A stretch of 64,000 bases of DNA from Paenimyroides aestuarii (GTDB lineage: Bacteria; Bacteroidota; Bacteroidia; Flavobacteriales; Flavobacteriaceae). The position numbers and the translations under genes were made by a program. The notes below the pieces were generated by a model, which worked only from the letters and a program-made list of their open reading frames with translations, did no database searches and was not told the DNA's origin. Where the stretch lies: assembly GCF_024628805.1 (NCBI RefSeq), contig NZ_CP102382.1:2232001-2296000 (forward strand). Direction: 5' to 3'. The stretch's first letter is position 1, and each line of letters begins with the position of its first letter. Shown here in pieces: positions 52,545-64,000 of the stretch.

Positions 52545-52585
52545 TTGTTAACCTTTTTTCCCGAAGGTATAATCAATTAGTATTC

Positions 52586-52760
52586 ATTAGGCAGGTCTCC
52601 TGGCTTGCATCTTGTTTTCGCCTTCCCAAAAAAATCAGTGGCACAGATAAAAACAAGTATTTACAGTAGTAAACGAAGCTTACAGTTGCGGGAACAGCAT
52701 AGGAATTGAAAAAATCGCACCTATTTCCCTTTTCATGCATAAAATAGCAACCTAAAACGT
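52586..52760 (-). promoter_or_regulatory. Cobalamin riboswitch
   Basis: On the minus strand the leader contains ggttgctatttt, cccgcaactg-like elements, then GCCACTG (complement of 52636-52642), GGGAAGG, and the B12-box AGCCAGGAGACCTGCC (complement of 52591-52607). This order is typical of cobalamin riboswitches. High B12 should shut down the receptor and propeller genes. Confidence 0.92.
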
Positions 52761-52762
52761 TG

Positions 52763-52793
52763 CAAAAGTACTCTATTTTATCAATAATGCAAA
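52763..52793 (-). promoter_or_regulatory. Promoter of the B12 operon
   Basis: A perfect Bacteroidota-type promoter on the minus strand: TTTG (complement of 52790-52793), 19 bases, TACTTTTG (complement of 52763-52770). Transcription starts just before the riboswitch. Confidence 0.8.
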
Positions 52794-52933
52794 TTAATTT
52801 TTTTTAAACAGATTGTCACAACAAAAACTACATGATTTGTAAAACAAGTTCTACAAGAAAAATTAAGAATTAAAAATTATATTTGAAGAGATACTTTGAA
52901 TTGTGTCAAAATAATTAAAAATAAAAAGCACTT

Positions 52934-53731
52934 ATGGGATTTTTCGACAAGTTTAAAAAGAAAAAAGAAAACGAAACACCACAGAAAGAAAGCAATCTAC
53001 TGCTTTCAATGCCGATGTTTAATTCCGAGGAAAGTTACTCACTCAATCATATTATTGATGATTTACAAAATTATTGGAAACTGAATGTTTCCGAAGTTTC
53101 GGGCGATGATTCCGTAACAACCTTCAAGATTGAAAATGAAACCGTTGCTGTTGCAATAATGCCTGTTCCCGTTCCAGAAAGTGATTTGGAGCCTATTTTC
53201 GGATTTAACTATTTGTGGAAAAACGCCGCTGAAGAAGTGCCTAATCATACCAATCACGCTATTGTTTCCGTTTTGGCAAGCGGGACCAATCAGTTGGAAC
53301 GATTTAAAATTTTAACAAAAGTCAATGCTTCTATTCTTAGAACCAGTAACAATGCGATTGGAATTTATCAAGGAACACAAACCCTTTTGCTTCCAAAAAA
53401 TTTGTATCTCGATTTTGCAGATTTCTTGAATCAAGATATGTTACCGTTACAATTGTGGATTTATATTGGGATTATCAACGAGGAAAACCACAGCAGCATT
53501 TACACGTACGGAATGAAAGAATTCGGGAAAACAGAAATCGAAATCCTGAAAAGTCCGATAAAAGGAGGCGATTTGTATGAGTTTCTATTGCCGGTTTTGA
53601 GTTACATTATCGAATCCGATGTTACCTTAAAAAATGGCGAAACAATTGGGTTTACAGCAGAACAGAAAATTAAAATCACCCAATCAAAAGGAATTTATTT
53701 AGAAGGCGAAACCTTGAAATTTGAAATGTAA
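52934..53731 (+). CDS. DUF4261-domain protein
   Basis: 265 residues with a basic, Lys-rich N-terminus (MGFFDKFKKKKE). The core matches DUF4261: ETVAVAIMPVPVPESDLEPIFGFNYLW, then HAIVSVLASGTNQLERFKILTKVNASIL, and a C-terminal ILSYIIESD region followed by NGETIGFTAEQKIKITQSKGIYLEGETL. Soluble, no signal. The function of this domain is unknown. First gene of the co-directional run to 63068. A TATATTTG element at 52878-52885 could be its -7. Confidence 0.78.
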   Translation: MGFFDKFKKKKENETPQKESNLLLSMPMFNSEESYSLNHIIDDLQNYWKLNVSEVSGDDSVTTFKIENETVAVAIMPVPVPESDLEPIFGFNYLWKNAAEEVPNHTNHAIVSVLASGTNQLERFKILTKVNASILRTSNNAIGIYQGTQTLLLPKNLYLDFADFLNQDMLPLQLWIYIGIINEENHSSIYTYGMKEFGKTEIEILKSPIKGGDLYEFLLPVLSYIIESDVTLKNGETIGFTAEQKIKITQSKGIYLEGETLKFEM

Positions 53732-53757
53732 AAAATAATTACTTTAAAATTAAAAAT

Positions 53758-54489
53758 ATGAACACAAACATTTACTTTATTATTGGCGGCGTTGCTATTG
53801 CTTTCATTATCTATATGGTCGTGTTGCAAAATATGATGAAAAAAAGAAAAGCACAGCAACTAGAAAACTTTAACAGCAATCATTCTGGAAATCCTTTAAC
53901 AGAAGAACAAAAACGATTATTAACATTTGGAGCCATTCTTTTTTATCATAGGGGAGAAAAAATTCTAGGAATAAGTCCCGAAGGAAACTTAGATGTAATT
54001 ACTTACGGATTGAAACAACAATGGGAAATTTCAAACTCAGAGGAAGCTAAAGAAACCCTAAACGATTTATTGATGTTGCAGAGAAGTACAGAATTTGAGC
54101 CACTTTTTCAACAATCTTCACCTGAATTAAGTAAAATTCAAAAAAACATTGCCAAAGGTTTAGGATTGGATTTAGCAATCGTAGAACAAACTAAATCTGC
54201 TTTTGCGTGGGATATTTGTAGAGCCGTTTCTTTGGCAAAATGGTGTTATTGGTGTGGTTATATCACCGAAACCGAAACGTTTTCTATCATGGAACAAGCT
54301 GCAAAAACAGCCAATCAATTGGGACAAAATTGGACCGATTATACCGTTTCTTTCTTATTAGGAAGAACCATTCAAGGTTTTGATTTGGATGATGTAATAA
54401 TAACTACTAAACAAATTCTTCACAGCCAAAATCCGGCACTTAGAAAAATGGAAGATATTGATGTGTACCAAAAATATTCATTTAAATAA
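53758..54489 (+). CDS. DUF1266-domain membrane-anchored protein
   Basis: 243 residues. One N-terminal membrane helix (YFIIGGVAIAFIIYMVVLQ) and a basic linker precede a DUF1266 domain: the conserved FAWDICRAVSLAKWCYWCGYITETETFSIMEQAA and WTDYTVSFLLGRTIQGFD are clear. The domain faces the cytoplasm. Its function is unknown; related proteins occur next to YbeU/YbeR-like genes in E. coli. Lies 12 bases before the DUF695/RraB gene. Confidence 0.82.
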   Translation: MNTNIYFIIGGVAIAFIIYMVVLQNMMKKRKAQQLENFNSNHSGNPLTEEQKRLLTFGAILFYHRGEKILGISPEGNLDVITYGLKQQWEISNSEEAKETLNDLLMLQRSTEFEPLFQQSSPELSKIQKNIAKGLGLDLAIVEQTKSAFAWDICRAVSLAKWCYWCGYITETETFSIMEQAAKTANQLGQNWTDYTVSFLLGRTIQGFDLDDVIITTKQILHSQNPALRKMEDIDVYQKYSFK

Positions 54490-54501
54490 AGACATACAAA
54501 A

Positions 54502-55290
54502 ATGTTCAAAAATTTATTCAACAAAAAAGAAGAAAAACCAATGGAAATTCCACAAGATTGGGTTTTTTATGCCTGCAAAGTAGACAATAATCCCGCAAGT
54601 ATTCGGATTAATTTGGCTTTGGATAAAATAGCACCGATTGCTGATTATCATCACAGAACTTGGTTTTCGGTAAAGCTGAAAGATCCCGACGAAAATGGAC
54701 TTCCAACCAACGAAGAATTTCCTAAAATTTGCCAAATTGAAGATGATATTGTAGATGCTTTAACCGCAAAAGGTGCGATCATGGTTGGTGCGCTGAAAAG
54801 CAACGGAACTTTTGATTTGTACCTTTACTCGAAAAATACAGATCGTTACGATGCAATTATGGGAGAAGTTATGGCAAAAAATCATTCAGATTATCAATTT
54901 GCAACCGATTTTAAAGAAGATGCAGAATGGGAAGATTATTTTAATTTTCTGTATCCGAATGACTACCAATACCAAAGCATACAAAACAGAAAAGTTTTGT
55001 TTCAGTTAAGCAAGCACGAAGACAACCCAGAAATAGAAAGGGAAATTGATCATTGGTTGTATTTTGATTCGGAAGCAAACAGAGAAAATTATATTGACGA
55101 AGTGCAGCAAATAGGCTATAAAGTGTTGTCAAAAGACTTTCGAGACGATATGCCAAAAAATGCGTATCAATTAAATATTTCGAGGGTAAATTCTACCATT
55201 GATATTGATGATTATGTTTGGGAACTCATCGAAATTGCCCATAAATACAATGCAGATTACGACGGTTGGGGTTGCCCGATTGCAAAGTAA
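54502..55290 (+). CDS. DUF695-RraB two-domain protein
   Basis: 262 residues in two parts. Residues ~15-140 are DUF695 (DWVFYACKVDNNPASIRINLALDKIAPIADYHHRTWFSVKLKDPDENGLPTNEEFPKICQIEDDI). Residues ~160-262 are RraB-like (ISRVNSTIDIDDYVWELIEIAHKYNADYDGWGCPI). RraB in E. coli binds and inhibits RNase E, but Bacteroidota have a different RNase set, so the target here is unclear. Soluble, no signal. Confidence 0.8.
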   Translation: MFKNLFNKKEEKPMEIPQDWVFYACKVDNNPASIRINLALDKIAPIADYHHRTWFSVKLKDPDENGLPTNEEFPKICQIEDDIVDALTAKGAIMVGALKSNGTFDLYLYSKNTDRYDAIMGEVMAKNHSDYQFATDFKEDAEWEDYFNFLYPNDYQYQSIQNRKVLFQLSKHEDNPEIEREIDHWLYFDSEANRENYIDEVQQIGYKVLSKDFRDDMPKNAYQLNISRVNSTIDIDDYVWELIEIAHKYNADYDGWGCPIAK

Positions 55291-55314
55291 TTTTTTTGCA
55301 ATTGATTTTTTCTG

Positions 55315-55349
55315 GACTTTCATGTTAAATATTTTTTTGAATGAAAGTC
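55315..55349 (+). terminator. Hairpin between DUF695-RraB gene and the next
   Basis: gactttcat and atgaaagtc form a 9-pair perfect stem, with T-rich sequence in the loop but no T run directly after. It may partly separate the first three genes from those after 55455. Confidence 0.45.
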
Positions 55350-55454
55350 ATCAATCATCATTAAAATCTTTGTGGCCTTAGCGTTTTAAATTTTTTTAAA
55401 AATGACAATCAAATATTTTTTTTAAATTTAATTCTCAAAAAAACACATCAAAAA

Positions 55455-56420
55455 ATGAAAAAAAATACCATTCTTGGCTTGCTTTTTACTGCAACATTTT
55501 CGCTCAGCAGTTTTTCGCAAAATCCTTATCAGGTTAACACTTCAGAAACCAACGTGAAAGAAAAGTCGGCGGAAAAATGGGTAGAGCCAATTAGATATAA
55601 TACACTGAAACCTGGATTGCGTTTTATGGTTTTGCCAATGGTTCCAAGTTCACCCAAGGAATTGAGTTTTAAAACCAATACTGAGGAAAAAGTGCTTACG
55701 AAAGATTTTGAAAACGAAATTTTCATCTACAAAAAATCAAAAGAAGTTCCTGATAAATATGGTTATGATAAAACGCTTTATTACTTTGAAAACAAAGGAA
55801 AGGAGTATTATCTGGAAGAACTAAAAACCGATAACGAAGAAAAAATTGTGAATTGGGACGCTTCTTCTGTCGTTTGGCTAGATGAAATCGATGCAGTGCA
55901 AAAAAAATTGGAAGGAAAAACCGTTTGGCTCAATGCTGATAGATGGGGTTATGAACTGAACGGCAAAAAATCCTATATGCACAATCCGGAACGTTTTGCG
56001 AAAATAAAAGTGGTAAAAGTAGGAGTGGGGACGTATTCTAACTATCCTGTTCGGGTTTTGTTTGAAAATGAATCCGACGGGAAACACTATTTTATAGACG
56101 GCTGTGTGAGCGGAACTTTGGGGTCGTGTTTTTCGAGCACGAATCTTCAGCAATTATTTTTATTTGAAAATCCAGAAAAAATCTATCCAAACGTAAAAAA
56201 AGAATTCTGGAGCACTATTAAAAATCGGGAAATCAAAAAAGGAATGAGCGAAGAAGAATGTATTCTAAGTTTAGGAAAACCAAGTAGCAAAAATGCATAT
56301 CAAAACGAGAAAGGTACTTTTAAAATGCTGTTTTATGAGGCTACAATGTATCGAAGAATATACACTCAAATCCTTTTAAAAGACAATAAAGTTATGGAGA
56401 TGAATGAATATGAAAATTAA
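55455..56420 (+). CDS. Secreted hypothetical protein with BamE-like tail
   Basis: 321 residues with a signal peptide (ending near LSSFSQ, residue 22). The middle region is unrecognised (FDENEIFIYKKSKEVPDK, WLNADRWGYELNGKKSYMHNPERF). The C-terminal ~70 residues (EIKKGMSEEECILSLGKPSSKNAYQNEKGTFKMLFYEATMYRRIYTQILLKDNKV) look like the small strand-helix SmpA/BamE or Omp-like fold found in envelope proteins. Function unknown. Confidence 0.65.
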   Translation: MKKNTILGLLFTATFSLSSFSQNPYQVNTSETNVKEKSAEKWVEPIRYNTLKPGLRFMVLPMVPSSPKELSFKTNTEEKVLTKDFENEIFIYKKSKEVPDKYGYDKTLYYFENKGKEYYLEELKTDNEEKIVNWDASSVVWLDEIDAVQKKLEGKTVWLNADRWGYELNGKKSYMHNPERFAKIKVVKVGVGTYSNYPVRVLFENESDGKHYFIDGCVSGTLGSCFSSTNLQQLFLFENPEKIYPNVKKEFWSTIKNREIKKGMSEEECILSLGKPSSKNAYQNEKGTFKMLFYEATMYRRIYTQILLKDNKVMEMNEYEN

Positions 56421-56473
56421 TAATTGTTGTTTTAGTTTATTTCATTTTTAAAAAGGATAAGTGGTTTGTTAAA

Positions 56474-58357
56474 ATGGCTAAGTGGTTTATTCAAATAATT
56501 TTTTGGTTCTTTTTTTTAATGTTGCAAATGAGTTGCAGCAAAAGCAAAGATTTGCCTGAAAAATTACGAACTACCCAAAAACTCGCCACAATCCCTCTTC
56601 GGTTTGATACGCTCAATGCTTCTCAAAGAATGGCTGTTTCAGATTCAATGGCGCAATTGTTTAAAACCGATAACGACACCTTAAATCCTGTTTATCATTA
56701 CTTTAAGGCTTATCAATTCAAATTGAATAACGAAAACGAACGAGCAAAAAACCAACTGCAGAAAATTGCTGGTTCTATTCCTGCCGAATGGAAAGTTTTG
56801 AAATCCTATGAAATGCTCAACATTTCAATTGCCAATACCACCACCATTCCATCGGGTACTTTTAATGAAATTTATCAAGCCATTCAAGAGGCAGAAAAAC
56901 AGCAGAGTCAATATACCTATCGCTATTATGACCTTTTGGCAAAAGCCTATTTCAATAATCGCCAAACCGAAAAAGCCAAAGAATTTTCGGATGTGCATTT
57001 CCAAAAACATCCCTTCAAAAGTCACCCCATCATCAAACAACGTTATTTTGATATTTCTTTTTTATTGGCAGAAAGATTGGGGGAAGAACAATTGATGCAA
57101 ACCTATCTCGACAGTTGTCGCACCCTTGCTACTCGCACGCTGGATAGCCTTGCTCTGATGCGAACTTATGAATACGAGGCACAGTTGAGAATTAGACAAA
57201 ATAGATTTGATGAGGCCATACAAGCTGAAAAATTGTATTTTGATTATCTTAAAAAAAACAATAATCTCTATGTTTTTGCTTTTAACAATTTGGCACAACT
57301 ATATCTCAAAGCCAAGCGATACAACGAGGCTTTGTCTTATTATCAACAGGGATTAAATTGGGCAAATGAACACCATCCGGAGAGCAATCTAAACCCCATC
57401 TACAACGGGATGAGTGGCGTGTATGCCATCATGGGTGATTACAAAAATGCGTACATCACATTGGATTCTTTGGTGCAATGGGACAAAAGGAATGCAGAGA
57501 AAATTCAGGCACAAAAAATCGCCGAGCTGCATGCTGCTTATGATACCGAGAAAAAGGAAACAGCCATCAAAATTTTGGAATCAACCAATGCTACCAATCA
57601 AAAAATCATAGCGCAGCAAAAATGGATGTTTGGAATTTCTGCCTTGGTTTTTTTATTAGTGGTTTTGTTTATGTACAATTATTATCGTCAGCGTGTGTTG
57701 TCTGAGCAGAACAAACATTTGGCACTGGAAAATAAAAAACTGCTTCTAGAACAAAAATATAGCCAAATGCAACTCAACCCTCATTTTATCTTCAATGCCA
57801 TTTCCAATCTTCAGGGACTGATTGGCAGTGGAAACAAGCGTGTTGCCAATGAATATTTGGTGGCTTTTTCTAAATTAATGCGCCATGTGTTGGAGCATAA
57901 CCGACAAGATTTTATCAGTTTGGAACAGGAAATAGAATCGCTTAAAAATTACCTTAAATTGCAACAAATTCGCTACGAAAATAAATTTGAGTACACCATA
58001 GAAATCAATGGTTTAGATACTGAAAACATAGGAGTTCCGCCCATGCTTTTGCAGCCTTTTGTTGAAAACACCATTGAGCATGGCTTCAAAAAAATTGATT
58101 ATTTGGGCCAAATTCACATTCAATTCGCCAAAAATGTACAGCAATTGCAAATCACCATCACAGACAATGGCACAAGTACTCCAAAACCGATGAATCCTTC
58201 TAAAAAATCATTATCAACAAAAATAATCCAAGAGCGATTGGACCTTTTGTTTAACCGCAAAGAACTAAAGGCAGGCTTCCAATCCAGAAGATTAAATAAT
58301 GAAAATCAAACGGGTTATGAGGTAATTTTGCATTTTCCAATAGAACCCTTGAATTAA
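56474..58357 (+). CDS. TPR lipoprotein sensor histidine kinase (LytS/YehU class)
   Basis: 627 residues. Lipobox LMLQMSC (Cys21), then an extracytoplasmic TPR region (~40-370, with AFNNLAQLYLKAKRYNEALSYYQQGL), a coiled coil, one membrane helix (~380-398, MFGISALVFLLVVLFMYNY), and a His_kinase domain with the acceptor His437 in QLNPHFIFNAISNLQGLI. The ATPase part has the N-box PFVENTIEHGF and TDNG. The gene overlaps the LytTR regulator by transcription (10-base gap), giving a complete two-component pair. Ligand unknown. Confidence 0.9.
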   Translation: MAKWFIQIIFWFFFLMLQMSCSKSKDLPEKLRTTQKLATIPLRFDTLNASQRMAVSDSMAQLFKTDNDTLNPVYHYFKAYQFKLNNENERAKNQLQKIAGSIPAEWKVLKSYEMLNISIANTTTIPSGTFNEIYQAIQEAEKQQSQYTYRYYDLLAKAYFNNRQTEKAKEFSDVHFQKHPFKSHPIIKQRYFDISFLLAERLGEEQLMQTYLDSCRTLATRTLDSLALMRTYEYEAQLRIRQNRFDEAIQAEKLYFDYLKKNNNLYVFAFNNLAQLYLKAKRYNEALSYYQQGLNWANEHHPESNLNPIYNGMSGVYAIMGDYKNAYITLDSLVQWDKRNAEKIQAQKIAELHAAYDTEKKETAIKILESTNATNQKIIAQQKWMFGISALVFLLVVLFMYNYYRQRVLSEQNKHLALENKKLLLEQKYSQMQLNPHFIFNAISNLQGLIGSGNKRVANEYLVAFSKLMRHVLEHNRQDFISLEQEIESLKNYLKLQQIRYENKFEYTIEINGLDTENIGVPPMLLQPFVENTIEHGFKKIDYLGQIHIQFAKNVQQLQITITDNGTSTPKPMNPSKKSLSTKIIQERLDLLFNRKELKAGFQSRRLNNENQTGYEVILHFPIEPLN

Positions 58358-58367
58358 ACAAAAAGAG

Positions 58368-59105
58368 ATGAAAGTATATATCTTAGAAGACGAAAGCCAT
58401 ATTTTGCAGTACATTATTTCTTTGGTGGATGACAATCCTCATTTAGAATTGGTGGGTTATTCAACCAGCATTGCCAAAGCAAAGTTGGAACTTCCCAATT
58501 TACAGCCAGATTTGATTTTGTCTGATATTCAGTTAGAAGACGGCAACAGTCTATCGCTTTTTTCTGAAATACCAACCGATTTGCAGATTATTTTCATCAC
58601 GGCTTATGACCAATTTGCCTTGCAAGCCTTGAATTTGGGGGCGTTGGCTTATTTGCTAAAACCTTTGGACACAGATGCTTTTACAGCAGCTATTGAAAAA
58701 TGCCATCAGAAAACAGAAAAATTTAAAGTACAAAAACAACAAACCCAATTGGCGTTGCAGCATTTTGCGGCTCCCCAATTTTCCAAAAAAATTGCGTTGC
58801 GCAGTACAGATGTCATTGAGATTGTCAACATAGAAGATATCCTATACTGCAACAGTGACAAGGGATACACCACATTCCATTTGGCAGATAAAAGCAAAAT
58901 ATTGGTGAGTAAAGTGTTGAAAGAATTTGATTCCCTGTTACCGAGTCCGCTCTTTTTTCGCTGCCATCAATCGTATCTTATCAATACCAATTTTTTGAAA
59001 AAATACTACAAAGATGGACAGATAGAAATGTGCAATGGCGCCATCATTCCCGTTTCGCAGCGTAAGCGTGCAGAGCTAATTGCACATATCGACGCAAATT
59101 TTTAA
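58368..59105 (+). CDS. LytTR-family response regulator
   Basis: 245 residues. Receiver domain ~1-120 with the phospho-acceptor Asp53 in LILSDIQLEDG and the conserved Thr/Lys in FITAYDQF and LLKPLDTD. LytTR DNA-binding domain ~135-240 (IALRSTDVIEIVNIEDILYC, RCHQSYLINTNFLKKYYKDGQIEM). It pairs with the kinase just upstream. Its target promoter is not recognisable; the gene clusters on both sides are the natural candidates. Confidence 0.93.
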   Translation: MKVYILEDESHILQYIISLVDDNPHLELVGYSTSIAKAKLELPNLQPDLILSDIQLEDGNSLSLFSEIPTDLQIIFITAYDQFALQALNLGALAYLLKPLDTDAFTAAIEKCHQKTEKFKVQKQQTQLALQHFAAPQFSKKIALRSTDVIEIVNIEDILYCNSDKGYTTFHLADKSKILVSKVLKEFDSLLPSPLFFRCHQSYLINTNFLKKYYKDGQIEMCNGAIIPVSQRKRAELIAHIDANF

Positions 59106-59231
59106 TCCCCAAAAATCGACCTAACGCTTGCGAATATAAAAAGAGAGCAAGCAAATATAGAATTGCCCTTTTTTTGAAGCTTTCATGGGTTAATTTTGAA
59201 TGAATTAATTTGAAAATCCATTCATATTACC
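59106..59231 (+). other. Short intergenic stretch after the regulator
   Basis: AT-rich, holds a possible hairpin near 59120-59150 (cttgcgaat, aagagagcaag) of low certainty and no clear promoter. The next gene may have its own start or continue the run. Confidence 0.3.
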
Positions 59232-59810
59232 ATGAAAAACAAGAGAATATTAATAGGAGTCGGCATTTTTCTTTTGATAACATTTGCAGGGATTTTTTGG
59301 TTGTATAATAAGATTAGTAACATCCAAGAAAACCGCGAACTATCGGCTCAAATTCCATCATCTTTAACCGATTTTTTTGCCTCCAAAAAAATTGAAGACT
59401 ACCCTTATGAACCCCAAGAAGTCAATTGGGATGGACGATTTATGCTGTTTGATTGGGAAGGAAATTTGGTGTATAACAAACAACGCAATGAAGCGCTGAA
59501 AACCAATCAATATTTTCCAAATGGCGAAATCAAAGGAATAGTGCTGGTAAAGCATGACAGCAAATTGCGTGGGGTTTATGTAGAAGATGGAGAAGACCCA
59601 AACCGTTCGTCAGAAAAAGCGTATCAACAATATTATGCCCTTTCCTTTTTGGATTTGGCAAGCGAAAAAGTATTGGTTCGAGATACCATTTGGGGCGAAG
59701 AACCCAAACAAAACAAACGAGAGCATGAAGACCAGCACGGTATTTTACCAACCGCAGGAATCCCCAGTGAGGGCGATTTAATCAAGAAAATTGAAGAAAA
59801 AATTAAATAA
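59232..59810 (+). CDS. Membrane-anchored hypothetical protein
   Basis: 192 residues with one N-terminal membrane helix (ILIGVGIFLLITFAGIFWLYNKI) and a soluble domain of ~160 residues: WDGRFMLFDWEGNLVYNKQRN and IKGIVLVKHDSKLRGVYVEDG show a strand-rich pattern. Ends in a Lys/Glu-rich tail. Unknown family. It is the first of six tightly packed genes (2- to 30-base gaps) that continue to 63068. Confidence 0.65.
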   Translation: MKNKRILIGVGIFLLITFAGIFWLYNKISNIQENRELSAQIPSSLTDFFASKKIEDYPYEPQEVNWDGRFMLFDWEGNLVYNKQRNEALKTNQYFPNGEIKGIVLVKHDSKLRGVYVEDGEDPNRSSEKAYQQYYALSFLDLASEKVLVRDTIWGEEPKQNKREHEDQHGILPTAGIPSEGDLIKKIEEKIK

Positions 59811-59811
59811 T

Positions 59812-60576
59812 ATGTTCAAGTTTTTTAAAGAAATTATTTCCTCTGTAAAAGAGGGAATAGCAGAAGGGATTGAGGAGGCCAATGCAGAGGAGGCACAAGA
59901 AAAATCAAACAAAGATAAAGCCGCTCTCGCCCAAAGAGAACTAGAACAAAAGCTAATCCAAAATACTCCGTTTCAAGAATCGTTTGGAACAGCTTTGGGC
60001 GCTCCATTTCGGTCGATTCTTTTTGGTGATTGGGTTTCGGTTTTTGACAAAAACAAAGACAGTGAAAAATATCCCATTCATCTCTATACTTTTGGTGAAT
60101 ACCAAGGAAAAGAAGAACGATTTTCTGATTTTAAAATGGCGCTGAAACGGGATTTTGGCATTGTTGATACCGAAAGTTGTAAAAAAACCTTGGCTGATTT
60201 CTTTGCACTTGCCCAAATTTCGACTGAACACACCCTTTTGGAAGCCATAGAAGGCAATGCCAATTCTATTTTTTGGAATCTGGAAAAACAAGGGGCCAAT
60301 GCGCTTTATGCTGCTGTTCTTAGCCATATCATCACTGCTTCGACCGATGTCCAATTTATCCAAAAAGAAGAAGCCCTGAGACTTCTCGAAAAAATTAATG
60401 AATTTGTTCGTCCGAACTATTCGAACTGGGAAGACTTTGGAGTTGATTTTCTTATTGGTGAACAGAATATAGGATTAAATAATGCTTTGGGTAGAAAATT
60501 TCTAAAAAAAACAGTAGGATTTTTACAAGACAAAAAAGGAAGTCCTTGGAAAAATTTGGAATGGTTTGAGATTTAA
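59812..60576 (+). CDS. DUF1266-related soluble protein
   Basis: 254 residues from the ATG at 59812, two bases after the previous stop; an earlier ATG at 59791 overlaps the preceding gene. The C-terminal half resembles DUF1266 weakly: ALYAAVLSHIITASTDVQFIQKEEALRLLEKINEFVRPNYSNWEDFGVDFLIGEQN has the same helix-W-x-x-(Y/F)-G arrangement. The N-terminal part (GDWVSVFDKNKDSEKYPIHLYTFGEYQ) is acidic and unrecognised. No membrane segment. The resemblance is partial, so the family is a guess. Confidence 0.55.
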   Translation: MFKFFKEIISSVKEGIAEGIEEANAEEAQEKSNKDKAALAQRELEQKLIQNTPFQESFGTALGAPFRSILFGDWVSVFDKNKDSEKYPIHLYTFGEYQGKEERFSDFKMALKRDFGIVDTESCKKTLADFFALAQISTEHTLLEAIEGNANSIFWNLEKQGANALYAAVLSHIITASTDVQFIQKEEALRLLEKINEFVRPNYSNWEDFGVDFLIGEQNIGLNNALGRKFLKKTVGFLQDKKGSPWKNLEWFEI

Positions 60577-60604
60577 AATAATTAATTGAAATAAAAAGGA
60601 AACT

Positions 60605-61081
60605 ATGAAAAAATACATTTTATGCCTACTATCAGGCTTAACCATATTTATAAGTTGCACCCACAAAGGCGAACCAACAAAACAAGGCGAAATGCTAACG
60701 ACAGAACAAATGAATGCGTTGGCTAATGACCAATCTATGAATGGAAAGCTGGTTTCGGTGAAGGGATACGCCTCTTTTTGTGGTGTGTTTTCTAGTGTTA
60801 AAGGAGGAAAGAAAAGCAGAATGAACATTTATACTGACGGATTTTGCAAGGGAGAAAAATTATTGGATGCCGAAATTTTAATTGCAGATAATCAAACGCC
60901 ATTAAGTGGTGAGGAAGAGCGGAATCAAGCTATCGTGGATAAGAATTTCTCCAACGAAACAATTAAATTCACAACCGATGATTACCAAGAAGTTTCGAAT
61001 GGTGAATTGACGTTTAGCGGAACCGTAATCTATAACGGTGCGGATTTTTATTTAGAAAATGTAACCATTCATAAACAATAA
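60605..61081 (+). CDS. Lipoprotein with OB-fold-like domain
   Basis: 158 residues with a lipobox (TIFISC, Cys18). The mature domain, with GKLVSVKGYASFCGVFSSV, SRMNIYTDGFCKGEKLLDAEILIAD and LTFSGTVIYNGADFYLENVTI, has the strand pattern of small OB-fold (tRNA_anti-like) lipoproteins. Ligand and function unknown. Confidence 0.65.
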   Translation: MKKYILCLLSGLTIFISCTHKGEPTKQGEMLTTEQMNALANDQSMNGKLVSVKGYASFCGVFSSVKGGKKSRMNIYTDGFCKGEKLLDAEILIADNQTPLSGEEERNQAIVDKNFSNETIKFTTDDYQEVSNGELTFSGTVIYNGADFYLENVTIHKQ

Positions 61082-61082
61082 T

Positions 61083-61472
61083 ATGCAAAGTAAAGGAGCA
61101 AAAATTGGGTTCATCGTATTGGTTCTTTTGGTTTTTGGAGGTGCAGTCTTTTTTATGTACGGCCCCAATAGCCATAACGCAAAACAAAAGGCAGAAACCA
61201 AAGAACGACTAAAAAATTATGTACGTGCCGAAGCCGAAATTATTACAACCGAATCCAATGGGAGAATTGGAAAAGGTGCGGATGTAATTTATACTGTTCA
61301 ATTTATGGTAGAAAACACACAATCTTTGAAAACAGCAAATTTTGGAGGACGTGAAGATGGTTGGTCAGATAATAATTACAAAAAAGGAGATAAAGTTGTT
61401 TTGTATTATGACCCTGAAAATCCAAACTTAATAGAAAGTGAAATTAAATATAAAGAAGTTTTAAACTATTAA
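61083..61472 (+). CDS. DUF3592-like membrane protein
   Basis: 129 residues with one N-terminal membrane helix (IGFIVLVLLVFGGAVFFMY). The rest is strand-rich: AEAEIITTESNGRIGKGADVIYTVQFMVE and KKGDKVVLYYDPENPN, which match the DUF3592 pattern (a Y-D-P-x-N-P end). Function unknown. The ATG follows the previous stop by one base. Confidence 0.75.
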   Translation: MQSKGAKIGFIVLVLLVFGGAVFFMYGPNSHNAKQKAETKERLKNYVRAEAEIITTESNGRIGKGADVIYTVQFMVENTQSLKTANFGGREDGWSDNNYKKGDKVVLYYDPENPNLIESEIKYKEVLNY

Positions 61473-61483
61473 TATTAAATAAT

Positions 61484-62095
61484 ATGAAAAAAACAATCGT
61501 CTTATTTGCTGCGGCAAGTATTTTAACCCTACAAAGTTGTGATTTACTCAATTCGTCTGAAAAATACGATTTGGCACAACCCGAAAAAGTAACCGAATTA
61601 AAGACAGAAATCGACAAAAATATCAAAGCTGAGGATTTGGTACATCAAATTAATTTTATTGTAAGTAACCATGATGGATTTAGCAATGAACCCAATGTGG
61701 TAAACGTAACGCTGGGAAAACCTGGAGAAGATAAGAAAGTGGAAAGAGTAAGCTTGGTTCTTTCACCCGAAATCAAAGTAGAACGCGAGGATACTGAATA
61801 CGTGGGGAAAGTGCATTCTATGCCGTATAGCGAATTTGATTTGTCAAAAGTTCCGACGTATATTTCAGAAGCTGCCGCTATGATTCCAGCCGAGGAATAT
61901 GAATATGCCGGTATTGGCGATTACCGAATACAAGCGCAAAGCGAAGGGTTTTTAGAGCATCATATCGTGTTGCAAGTGACGCCTACAACGGGTGCTACAC
62001 AAATGAACGGACGCCGTATCGAAACCACATATTACGAAATCGAATACAAAACCGATAAGGACGGGAAGTTGAATATGCTAATCGAAGAAGAGTAA
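61484..62095 (+). CDS. Hypothetical lipoprotein
   Basis: 203 residues with a lipobox (ILTLQSC, Cys19). Mature protein with no recognised motif, mixed strand/helix, rich in Glu and Val: VVNVTLGKPGEDKKVERVSLVLSPEIKVERED. One-base spacing to the next gene. Function unknown. Confidence 0.65.
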   Translation: MKKTIVLFAAASILTLQSCDLLNSSEKYDLAQPEKVTELKTEIDKNIKAEDLVHQINFIVSNHDGFSNEPNVVNVTLGKPGEDKKVERVSLVLSPEIKVEREDTEYVGKVHSMPYSEFDLSKVPTYISEAAAMIPAEEYEYAGIGDYRIQAQSEGFLEHHIVLQVTPTTGATQMNGRRIETTYYEIEYKTDKDGKLNMLIEEE

Positions 62096-62096
62096 A

Positions 62097-62360
62097 ATGA
62101 AATTTCTTTACAAACTTTTTTCGGCATTGGTGGTTTTGGCAACATTTGTCTATTTGGCTTATACCATGTATTTCTTTGATGACTTGAGCGGGAGACAATT
62201 TTTCTTGGTCATTTTGATTGCTTCCTTTATGATTGGAATTTTTGGAAAAACCGTCGCTGCCATCATCAGTTTGGTCATTGGATTGCTCGCTGCCATTTTT
62301 GTTTTGTGGAGTAAAGATGAAGATGAAAGCGAAAAAATTATCCCTACTAAAAAATTGTAA
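62097..62360 (+). CDS. Small multi-pass membrane protein
   Basis: 87 residues with about three hydrophobic segments (FSALVVLATFVYLAYTMYF, FFLVILIASFMIGIFG, AAIISLVIGLLAAIFVLW) and a short charged tail. No family recognised. The start ATG lies one base after the lipoprotein stop. Confidence 0.7.
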   Translation: MKFLYKLFSALVVLATFVYLAYTMYFFDDLSGRQFFLVILIASFMIGIFGKTVAAIISLVIGLLAAIFVLWSKDEDESEKIIPTKKL

Positions 62361-62381
62361 AACATTTAAAATAAATTAATT

Positions 62382-63068
62382 ATGTCACCAACAATTATCA
62401 TCATAGTTGCTGTGCTTTTTATAGGATCGTTCATTTATATGCGTTATATGATGAACAAACAAAAGCAAGCAGCACAAAAATATTCAGGAGATGATGCCTT
62501 GAATAAAACACCTGAAATGCAACAAGAGCTGATTCCGAAATATTTTTCATCCCTAGAAAAACAAATGCAAGGTGCACCCATAGATGCCTTTACAGAATGT
62601 GCACACATCACAACTGTAGGCAATAAAGTAGCTTCTGCTGCAGCCACGGCAGCCAAAACGGTTGCATGGGCAGCGGTTGGCGTAAAAGCGAAGTACCAAG
62701 AAGCCGATCATGCCAGTTATTTGGTGTTGAGTGGCGATGAATTACATTATTTATTTTTTGAAGAAGGCGCACCCAAAGAACATTTGATTTTTGACCAAAC
62801 CAGATTGCTCAATGCGCGTGTAGGAACCATCACCAATGCAGAAAAAGTGACCCGTATGTCGGCCATTGCGCAACAAAAACCGAACAAATTATCAATTGAC
62901 ATTGACGGAAAACCGGTCGATATTTTGTACTATAATGAGGTGAGACGGATGCCTGAAACCACCTTGGCATTTGAGAAAAATGGAATGGACACCCAAGCGA
63001 AATTTGGACTATTGGGTCGTTACTTCAAAAAGAAATTCTTTGAGAAATATCCACACTTAAGCAACTAA
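62382..63068 (+). CDS. Membrane-anchored protein with PH-like domain
   Basis: 228 residues with one N-terminal membrane helix (IIIIVAVLFIGSFIYMRYMM). The soluble part includes SYLVLSGDELHYLFFEEGAPKEHLIFDQTRLLNARVG and KLSIDIDGKPVDILYYNEVRRMPE, a strand pattern that looks like a PH/GRAM-type domain. The assignment is tentative. It is the last complete gene of the run and is followed by a terminator. Confidence 0.6.
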   Translation: MSPTIIIIVAVLFIGSFIYMRYMMNKQKQAAQKYSGDDALNKTPEMQQELIPKYFSSLEKQMQGAPIDAFTECAHITTVGNKVASAAATAAKTVAWAAVGVKAKYQEADHASYLVLSGDELHYLFFEEGAPKEHLIFDQTRLLNARVGTITNAEKVTRMSAIAQQKPNKLSIDIDGKPVDILYYNEVRRMPETTLAFEKNGMDTQAKFGLLGRYFKKKFFEKYPHLSN

Positions 63069-63085
63069 TCCGCCTAAGCCTTTCA

Positions 63086-63123
63086 AAAGCCTTTGCTTCG
63101 AAATTTCGGGCAAAGGTTTTTTG
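63086..63123 (+). terminator. Terminator after the DUF cluster
   Basis: cctttgc and gcaaagg flank a hairpin whose inner part contains the palindrome cgaaatttcg; T run follows. Confidence 0.75.
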
Positions 63124-63216
63124 TTTTTGGAGGGGTTTTGTCTAAAAAAAACATCAACCAATATACAAAATAGCCAAAAGCGTTGCCCTTGACTAATGTA
63201 GTAAAGGCTTTCAGCC

Positions 63217-63275
63217 ATTTGATACCATATTTCCCTGAAAGGGATATAGAACCCAACCCAATGCATTGGTGGTTG
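63217..63275 (+). repeat. Two adjacent inverted repeats, possible dispersed element
   Basis: tatttccct/agggatata form one hairpin (63226-63247). A 12-base perfect palindrome ccaatgcattgg (63258-63269) lies after it. The style recalls the short structured dispersed repeats found in Bacteroidota intergenic regions. Only one copy is seen in the window. Confidence 0.4.
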
Positions 63276-63341
63276 AGAATAAACCTTTAACAATCAAAAC
63301 ACCACAAACAATTTGAAACAAACATTTTTAACCCCAATTTT

Positions 63342-64000
63342 ATGAAAATCAACCTAATCATTCAAATTCTAATTATTTCTATTGCACTTGTATCCTGTTC
63401 AGAGAAAGGATTTGAAAAAGCTGAATCCAAATCGGAATATCTAGCCGAAATGGAAAGTCTTTCAGAAGGTTCCTTAAAAAACCAACTTCAAAAAGATGTA
63501 GATTTCATTCAAAATCAAGTAGATGAAGTAAGTGGCCTTACCTTTTATTTTACGATGTCTTTTGGCTTTGGTGATGGCGAAATGAAGGAAGAAATAGACA
63601 CGGCAGATTGGTTTCGTTTAGCTGATGAAGATTCAATTCGATTGGATTTTCAACATATAAAAGATTCAATTTCTACAAAACAGAAATACCAACTTCCAAA
63701 CTCAACTTTTGATTTTGACTCAGAGAATTATGACTATGATTTTTCCTATTTAGAAACCAATGATTTGCAATATGAAATCAAAGAAATTTATGCCCAAAAT
63801 AAAAGGTTATCACCAACAAAAATTGGACTTGAACGTGCGGATAGTCTTTTGGTGAAAATTGACTATACGTTTCCCAAAAGTTTGGACACATTGGTTTTGG
63901 ATAGATCGGCAAAAGATTCGGTTTTGTTTAAAAACCACCTCATCAAAATCGACACCGTTGGTGCAGAAAGAATTGGGCTGAAAATTCCGATGGATTTGTA
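63342..64000 (+). CDS. Hypothetical lipoprotein (partial)
   Basis: Open for 219 codons to the window end. Signal and lipobox (SIALVSC, Cys19), then a coiled-coil-like start (SLKNQLQKDVDFIQNQ) and a soluble body with TFYFTMSFGFGDGE and IKIDTVGAERIGLKIPM. No family recognised. It follows the DUF run after a terminator and the repeat. Confidence 0.65.
   Translation, partial: MKINLIIQILIISIALVSCSEKGFEKAESKSEYLAEMESLSEGSLKNQLQKDVDFIQNQVDEVSGLTFYFTMSFGFGDGEMKEEIDTADWFRLADEDSIRLDFQHIKDSISTKQKYQLPNSTFDFDSENYDYDFSYLETNDLQYEIKEIYAQNKRLSPTKIGLERADSLLVKIDYTFPKSLDTLVLDRSAKDSVLFKNHLIKIDTVGAERIGLKIPMDL

Follow-up and report, generated by a model that had tools for sequence, protein, structure and literature searches.

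A horizontally acquired mosaic island between btuB and btuF of Paenimyroides aestuarii that may carry a regulated envelope module

Between the vitamin B12 uptake genes btuB and btuF of Paenimyroides aestuarii, a block of about 14.9 kb is a discrete insertion, and we tentatively propose, as a real possibility, that it is a horizontally acquired mosaic carrying a regulated envelope module. In the window, that is, the whole stretch of 64,000 nucleotides analyzed, the island spans positions 52844 to 64000, and it runs onward in the genome to C1:2299756, as delimited by blastn against the site of the nearest relative (G026). The left flank was collinear with G026 up to L002:844 (78.5%), and the match restarted on the right at L002:15758 (80.4%). 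The cobalamin riboswitch of btuB (52573 to 52770, minus strand; Rfam RF00174, 95.4 bits) lies outside the island, in the conserved left flank. Genes A to O were missing at all 20 same-genus btuF sites fetched, a subset of the 60 other genomes with btuF, and the same site in the nearest relative was occupied by a different 1.8 kb. As expected for an island acquired by horizontal transfer, the orthologous site in relatives was empty of these genes and its flanks were intact. The G+C content of the island genes (33 to 40%) did not deviate clearly from that of the window (33.9%), and proof of transfer by base composition was therefore dropped.

The island comprises about 16 genes, mostly uncharacterized and often membrane associated. 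The initial annotation had described at least twelve co-directional genes, nearly all without known function, continuing past the window end. In agreement with this, 13 complete plus-strand genes were found between 52934 and 63068, and a 14th, starting at 63342, is open at the window end; past 64 kb lie the remainder of this gene (N), O, the transposase gene P, and then btuF and btuC. Genes A to O, 15 in number, occupy one strand, with 11 of the 14 gaps no longer than 53 bp. Because three gaps are wide (164, 126, and 273 bp, against 1 to 53 bp elsewhere), A to O probably form four transcription units rather than one.

Pfam recovered the domains that had been named from the letters alone, with the DUF3592-like one falling just below the cut-off. 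Gene A (52934 to 53731, plus strand, as for all genes below; 265 aa) encodes a DUF4261 protein (E value of 7e-25), and no other cluster relative lay alongside it in any of the four full-length cases fetched from the same genus. Gene B (53758 to 54489; 243 aa) encodes a DUF1266 protein with one N-terminal helix (2e-22) and an all-helical structure model (pLDDT 92.9); its identity in Pedobacter is 73 to 74%, and it was present in 9 of 395 Bacteroidota genomes, the host genome included. The product of C (54502 to 55290) combines DUF695 (4e-38) with RraB (8e-22), and over the RraB part it matched PDB entry 1nxi by sequence (1e-5). Gene D (55455 to 56420; 321 aa) had DUF3192 as its sole Pfam match (0.04, below the cut-off), and its product is probably exported, judging by eye from an apparent signal. 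The TPR sensor histidine kinase E (56474 to 58357; His_kinase 4e-21, TPR), with two hydrophobic segments, and the LytTR response regulator F (58368 to 59105; Response_reg 1e-12, LytTR 1e-18) are adjacent within the run, with 10 bp between them.

Downstream, G (59232 to 59810) encodes a single-helix protein of 192 aa, a relative of which adjoins M in locus L075 (33% over 180 aa), and H (59815 to 60576) encodes a second, divergent DUF1266 protein (1.5e-12). The lipoprotein I (60605 to 61081; 158 aa) has a relative (63%) in Pedobacter array L015, alongside those of B and J; I-type lipoproteins lie close to M in L015, L016, and L072 to L074, a grouping that reflects weak similarity (L073, 3e-4). 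The DUF3592-like membrane protein J (61083 to 61472) scored 23.4 bits against a Pfam cut-off of 25.3 and has a relative (49%) in L015. Relatives of the lipoprotein K (61484 to 62095; 203 aa) in L015, L016, and L067 (26 to 28% over 88 to 100 aa) link it to B. finegoldii L079. The small membrane protein L (62097 to 62360; 87 aa) is 51% identical to a protein adjoining M in L049. Gene M (62382 to 63068; 228 aa) belongs to an unnamed family and encodes one helix and a domain that is PH-like in the structure model. The WG-repeat lipoprotein N (690 aa in the genome) begins at 63342 and is cut by the window end at 64000, its sequence continuing past 64 kb, and after it, beyond the window and on the same strand, comes the lipoprotein O. 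Among the 14 window genes, G, I, K, and N (as cut) had no Pfam match at an E value of ≤1, and D, L, and M gave matches below the cut-off only. A simple hydropathy scan found lipobox-like ends in I, K, N, and O and at least one hydrophobic segment each in B, E, G, J, L, and M, which bears out the lipoproteins and membrane proteins initially annotated. Its lipobox call on C was a false positive, judging from the sequence, and it missed two features seen by eye, LQMSC in kinase E and the signal in D.

Some of these families were found together elsewhere. Outside the host genome, M lay within 1.3 kb of a DUF1266 gene in 8 of 27 M loci, which are not fully independent, where about 0.16% per locus was expected; the M-DUF1266 pairing thus recurs far above chance. 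Free variation of the neighbors had been named beforehand as a sign against a common module, and this was half borne out: membership varies greatly, whereas the pairing recurs. Within the island itself, M sits 1.8 kb from H, the nearest DUF1266 gene, and 7.9 kb from B. Of the 12 loci fetched via B, three contained a clear M, two a weak M-like match (E value of about 1e-4, uncounted), and seven no M; M was found in 3 of 345 genomes of the class, counting the host. Relatives of B, I, J, K, and M occur together in L015, and the order K-small membrane protein-M is common to the island, L015, and L067. No relatives of A, C, D, N, or O were found in the M arrays compared.

The regulator was also encountered near M. 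Two of the 27 M loci had a kinase-regulator pair marked nearby, and the other 25 had none. In genome G1078, the best match of F among 36 regulators sits 0.5 kb from M, together with its kinase, and in G988 the best match among 20 regulators sits 3 kb from M; both loci had been noticed before the best-match test of F. A LytTR operator for F was also sought, and nothing convincing was found in the gaps, two of which share only an 11-base AT-rich string. The joint recurrence of some island families in distant bacteria suggests a regulated, mobile system for envelope protection.

Gene P, after O and outside the window, encodes a Y1/IS200-like transposase that exceeds the cut-off of the NCBIfam IS200/IS605 model (60.2 versus 55 bits) and falls below that of the RAYT model (18.9 versus 80 bits). 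It is 85% identical to a transposase within L016, a Pedobacter array that holds relatives of B (74%), K, and M. One REP-like repeat copy (63151 to 63263; repeat search, family D1) lies in the M-N gap, and two further copies flank P on either side, beyond the window. P thus has REP-like palindromes on both sides, as in a RAYT/REP-type arrangement, and the repeats set N and O apart from the remaining island genes. An exact REP-like 21-mer has four copies in the genome, all within the island (reversed control, 0), and none in G026, G783, or G784. Together, the Pedobacter-like transposase and the island-confined 21-mer, as expected of foreign mobile DNA, show that P and the palindromes are of outside origin. 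They are the likeliest means by which the genes were gathered, and they may also have transferred them; here, an IS200-like transposase with palindromes is seen inside mosaic arrays common to two orders. Carriage of B and M by phages or plasmids was rejected: a single-protein pattern scan, which detects close relatives only, found neither in viral contigs, no M relative was found in plasmids, and B had one plasmid match.

We read the island as a regulated envelope module that can be transferred and whose function would most likely be protective. The TPR kinase E would sense a disturbance of the envelope and phosphorylate F, which would turn up the G-M unit and perhaps also units A-C, D-F, and N-O. 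The products of B and M, each presumably held in the inner membrane by a single helix and most likely exposing its domain to the cytoplasm, could then cooperate across the envelope with the lipoproteins I, K, N, and O to limit damage, probably inflicted by competitors. This reading is supported by the defined island ends, the absence of A to O in relatives, the M-DUF1266 pairing, and the F-type regulators near M. Against it stand the lack of any recognized immunity or defense protein, the rarity of the pair near M (2 of 27 loci), and the occurrence of M as a lone gene at 11 of 27. The initial suggestion of an envelope, contact, or immunity module holds in part, insofar as it concerns an accessory envelope module built around a two-component system. 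A more specific proposal, which we regard as quite unlikely, is that M, DUF1266 proteins, small lipoproteins, and the TPR kinase-LytTR pair constitute an undescribed inducible envelope-spanning system of Bacteroidota that stops either phage attack or attack delivered by contact, with IS200-like transposases and their palindromes collecting and mobilizing it.

The possible immunity setting deserves closer comparison. Heterogeneous polyimmunity loci, as described by Zhang et al. 2012 (PMC3482391), consist of closely spaced same-strand genes of variable content with no toxin gene, and in several cases they adjoin a recombinase such as XerC/D. If the island were such a locus, each small gene would counter a different toxin delivered by neighboring cells, and joint action would not be needed. 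The island matches features listed there (PMC3482391): its small genes are co-directional, tight, and mosaic, their content varies between relatives, the island was acquired, no toxin gene was recognized, and its relatives have ankyrin-type neighbors. It departs from that description (PMC3482391) in having no described immunity family, a two-component system, and an IS200-like transposase where no XerC/D-type recombinase was recognized. Relatives of DUF1266 and K do occur alongside Imm5 and PoNe immunity genes in an array on a Bacteroides plasmid, and Imm17 was matched in 1 of 76 array proteins. Within A to O, neither Pfam nor NCBIfam gave an Imm, SUKH, or SuFu match within the E limits applied, and PADLOC families matched none of the 13 island proteins other than E, F, and P. 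An immunity setting thus has indirect support, through the relatives in the plasmid array. Nor would independent immunity genes be expected to show a regulator matching F close to M in two further genomes, recurring orders such as M-DUF1266 and K-small membrane protein-M, or a lone conserved M in one clade. On balance, we consider a polyimmunity locus unlikely, if still a serious candidate.

PADLOC over the 76 array proteins matched PDC-M72A in two and 'Ankyrin' in one, and a follow-up with 10 proteins (7 from relatives' arrays) gave no match. The small membrane protein was rejected as Imm17, there being no match in three 75-aa proteins at that position or in the L049 relative of L. The toxin or secretion gene anticipated past 64 kb was not recognized there or in A to O by Pfam or NCBIfam. 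A type VI secretion (T6SS) link was discarded, as TssD (PF17642), present in 5 of 14 genomes asked, was missing in the host as well as in the two Pedobacter genomes that hold the most similar arrays; an apparent T6SS near the L046 DUF1266 relative was not backed by Pfam on five neighbors.

Acquired interbacterial defense clusters of Bacteroidales are acquired arrays that carry orphan copies of known immunity genes. The island resembles them as an acquired array in Bacteroidota and differs in that no orphan known immunity gene was identified in it; the Bacteroides plasmid array with DUF1266 looks like one of these clusters. The nearest counterparts are the Pedobacter arrays L015 (P. xixiisoli NZ_OCMT01000001.1) and L016 (Pedobacter sp. 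NZ_JAVHXT010000011.1). Like the island, both contain B, K, and M, with I and J also in L015, and an IS200-like transposase (35% to P in L015 and 85% in L016). Unlike the island, both carry ankyrin-repeat genes, with no two-component pair marked, whereas the island is free of ankyrin genes and contains A, C, D, N, and O in addition.

A module for envelope stress or homeostasis that spreads by transfer and has nothing to do with conflict appears rather improbable. The two-component system, lipoproteins, and membrane-tethered proteins would suit it, as would the linkage of the regulator to M and the stable lone M genes; a lone M that keeps the same chromosomal setting within a single clade fits housekeeping better than defense. 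However, the patchy presence of B and M across the genomes counted, and the setting of one relative among ankyrin and immunity genes, argue against it. Least probable, and very doubtful in our view, is an insertion hot spot where genes were merely gathered with no common function beyond the kinase-regulator pair: the different 1.8 kb in the nearest relative, A without cluster relatives elsewhere, the four likely transcription units, the repeats parting N and O from the rest, and the non-adjacency of M and DUF1266 in the island agree with it, but the co-occurrence of relatives of B, I, J, K, and M in a single Pedobacter array does not.

DUF1266 is also encoded by ybeR and ybeU of E. coli, which lie next to hscC and J-domain genes. 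There, too, DUF1266 is found within an uncharacterized accessory cluster, unlike the island in having chaperone partners rather than a two-component system and lipoproteins. A parallel to the ybeR/ybeU cluster exists in Dickeya (PMC6329079), and in two papers, that one among them, DUF1266 figures merely as a list item. Hardly any literature exists under the names DUF1266, DUF4261, and DUF695. The comparison gives DUF1266 a specific partner, the unnamed family M, along with looser links to lipoproteins and a regulator, and the function of several orphan families thereby becomes testable.

The run of genes that starts at position 52934 of the window is real and was acquired. Gene calling and Pfam searches bore out the content listed in the initial annotation. 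On the + strand lie, in order, a DUF4261 protein (A), a DUF1266 protein (B), a DUF695-RraB protein (C), a probably exported protein (D), a TPR histidine kinase (E), a LytTR regulator (F), a single-helix protein (G), a second DUF1266 protein (H), a lipoprotein (I), a DUF3592-like protein (J), another lipoprotein (K), a small membrane protein (L), a single-helix protein without a family (M), and a WG-repeat lipoprotein of 690 aa (N) that is cut by the window end. The window (G000:C1:2232001-2296000) lies on a 2.96-Mb contig, and the run does extend past it, as had been proposed, with the rest of N, a lipoprotein (O), and a Y1/IS200-like transposase (P) preceding btuF and btuC. The suggested toxin or secretion gene was not recognized in this N-O-P-btuF-btuC stretch. 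About 14 to 20 kb beyond the window end (L003:7342-12535), a type I restriction-modification set (HsdM-like and HsdS-like) and an ATPase gene were noted by eye.

The left flank of the island is btuB with a cobalamin riboswitch, and the right flank is btuF. Collinearity with the nearest relative, G026 (BtuF, 81%), ends at L002:844 and resumes at L002:15758; therefore, the insert is about 14.9 kb long and starts at window position 52844. Every one of the 61 genomes of the genus, counting this one, had btuF. Genes A to O were found at none of 20 sites fetched from the other 60, some of them cut by contig ends and one (L039) only 5 kb long. A distant relative of P (35%) lay near one of these sites (L034). 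In G026, the btuB-btuF site carries a different insert of about 1.8 kb (L020:13889-15988) with many short CAAATCTGGT-like repeats, recognized by eye. Thus, the site itself accepts DNA, and it may be an insertion hot spot. The G+C content of the island was not clearly deviant.

Single families of the island were counted over genomes with this genome included. B occurred in 9 of 395 Bacteroidota genomes, A in 6 of 101 genomes of the genus (one a fragment with a stop codon), and K in 9 of 345 genomes, being strong besides this genome only in G186, itself part of the query alignment. M was found in 3 of 345 genomes of the class (G062, one of the three, had contributed to the query alignment) and in 24 of 301 genomes in the family of G783. 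A B relative with 57% identity (P0144) is named from Acinetobacter sp. ANC 4648; judging from this name, transfer of B beyond Bacteroidota would be possible.

Repeats with palindromic cores were located in the M-N gap and on either side of P. A REP-like 21-mer was present in four copies in this genome, every one inside the island, and was absent from G026, G783, and G784. P shared 85% identity over 150 aa with a transposase within a Pedobacter sp. array (L016), near which the palindrome core was found without the 21-mer. A second relative (35%) occurred in the P. xixiisoli array (L015), where the core was absent. Matches to P numbered four in this genome, six in G784 (two being adjoining pieces), and two in G783, and the chance of a match falling in an array was about 2%, 1.6%, and 0.5% for assumed array lengths. 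Some matches contain a stop codon, including the L016 match, as the query is longer than the reading frame there. The L067 array, which has B and M relatives, contained no P relative, and G1060 gave no match to P. NCBIfam assigns P to IS200/IS605 and not to its RAYT model, so the label "RAYT-like" depends on the palindromes.

The proposal that these genes form a module was borne out in part by their neighborhoods elsewhere. A DUF1266 gene lay within 1.3 kb of M in 8 of the 27 M loci outside this genome (L015, L016, L044, L061, L062, L063, L065, and L067), but M stood alone in L066 and in 11 loci sharing one common chromosomal setting (L050-L060, hosts probably Sphingobacterium from the names of matches). 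These 27 loci, annotated with small HMMs built from the same loci, comprise all 24 from the family of G783 plus L016, L044, and L068; L041 and L042 were left out as weak M-like matches (E ~1e-4). In L061, DUF1266 is split into two reading frames (L061:8899-9612) beside an intact M, and in the window the closest DUF1266 gene is H, 1.8 kb away. From the other side, 12 annotated loci fetched through B (L015-L018, L040-L044, L046, L048, and L079; L019, L045, and L047 not counted) had a clear M in 3, a weak match in 2, and no M in 7. Three M/B pairs on contigs of equal size outside this genome, noticed before counting, came from 31 of 70 listed M proteins and 27 of 120 listed B proteins (of 420).

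Other neighbors of M recurred as well. A small exported protein, S (e.g., L072:10379-10831), lay upstream of M in 7 of 27 loci; its mature part often starts with KIPFGER or similar, and two members tested had no Pfam match. I-type lipoproteins adjoined M or were one gene off in five (L015, L016, L072, L073, and L074), with the assignment in L016 and L072-L074 relying on weak similarity to I. Between K and M in the window, L015, and L067 there is a small membrane protein, and one also adjoins M in L049 and L074; this grouping is by position and takes in both a 75-aa type and L.

The run is probably regulated. Kinase-regulator pairs of the same type as E and F were found near M in 2 of 27 loci, L065 (0.5 kb) and L073 (3 kb), and the regulator genes of these pairs were the best matches of F in G1078 (36 matches) and G988 (20 matches), respectively. 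Such proximity of the closest counterparts of F to M would be hard to explain by chance; because the pairs were selected beforehand, the comparison serves as guidance rather than as a formal test.

Taken together, we tentatively favor an acquired island carrying a regulated envelope module, at somewhat less than even odds, with a protective envelope function as our best guess. That M, DUF1266, the lipoproteins, and the TPR kinase-LytTR pair would form an inducible envelope-spanning system against contact-delivered or phage attack, moved by IS200-like transposases, is unlikely. Both readings were weighed lower because of the M-DUF1266 distance in the window, the number of loci fetched through B that lack a clear M, and the pairs in just 2 of 27 loci; two rival explanations gained slightly. 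In the literature searched, DUF1266 is named in three papers, DUF4261 in one, and DUF695 in none; two of the DUF1266 papers mention the family without giving it a function.

Support for the suggested immunity context was indirect and came from an array with relatives of island genes. In a Bacteroides finegoldii plasmid array (L079), K relatives and two DUF1266 genes accompany annotated ankyrin (three), Imm5 (two), PoNe immunity (one), and YfbM (one) genes, but none of the island's own proteins matched an immunity family. PADLOC matched none of the 13 island proteins tested. A Pfam group scan of 76 proteins (5 of the island and 71 hand-chosen across eight arrays, leaving aside M, B, and the majority of ankyrin genes) matched 51 families; among the 25 shown, Imm17 and CHAP each occurred in one protein and DUF2931 in two. 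The plasmid array is headed by a 1,685-aa protein annotated as Imm5 (L079:5930-10987), which looks like a polyimmunity protein. The polyimmunity-locus criteria used for the island come from PMC3482391.

Four Pedobacter-type arrays hold adjacent relatives of two L079 ankyrin genes, and in Fusobacterium such relatives occur together with one small gene while the rest of the array is absent. In this recurring set, a small gene (~165 aa) accompanies the genes for two ankyrin proteins (~484 to 527 and 323 aa); the set was located at L079:12215-15250, L015:2-2941, L067:12544-15645, L072:16316-19438, and L080:8033-10966, with no detectable match for the small gene in the Bacteroides plasmid copy. The last gene of the set retains 50 to 59% identity across phyla, and the set may constitute a separate, undescribed system.
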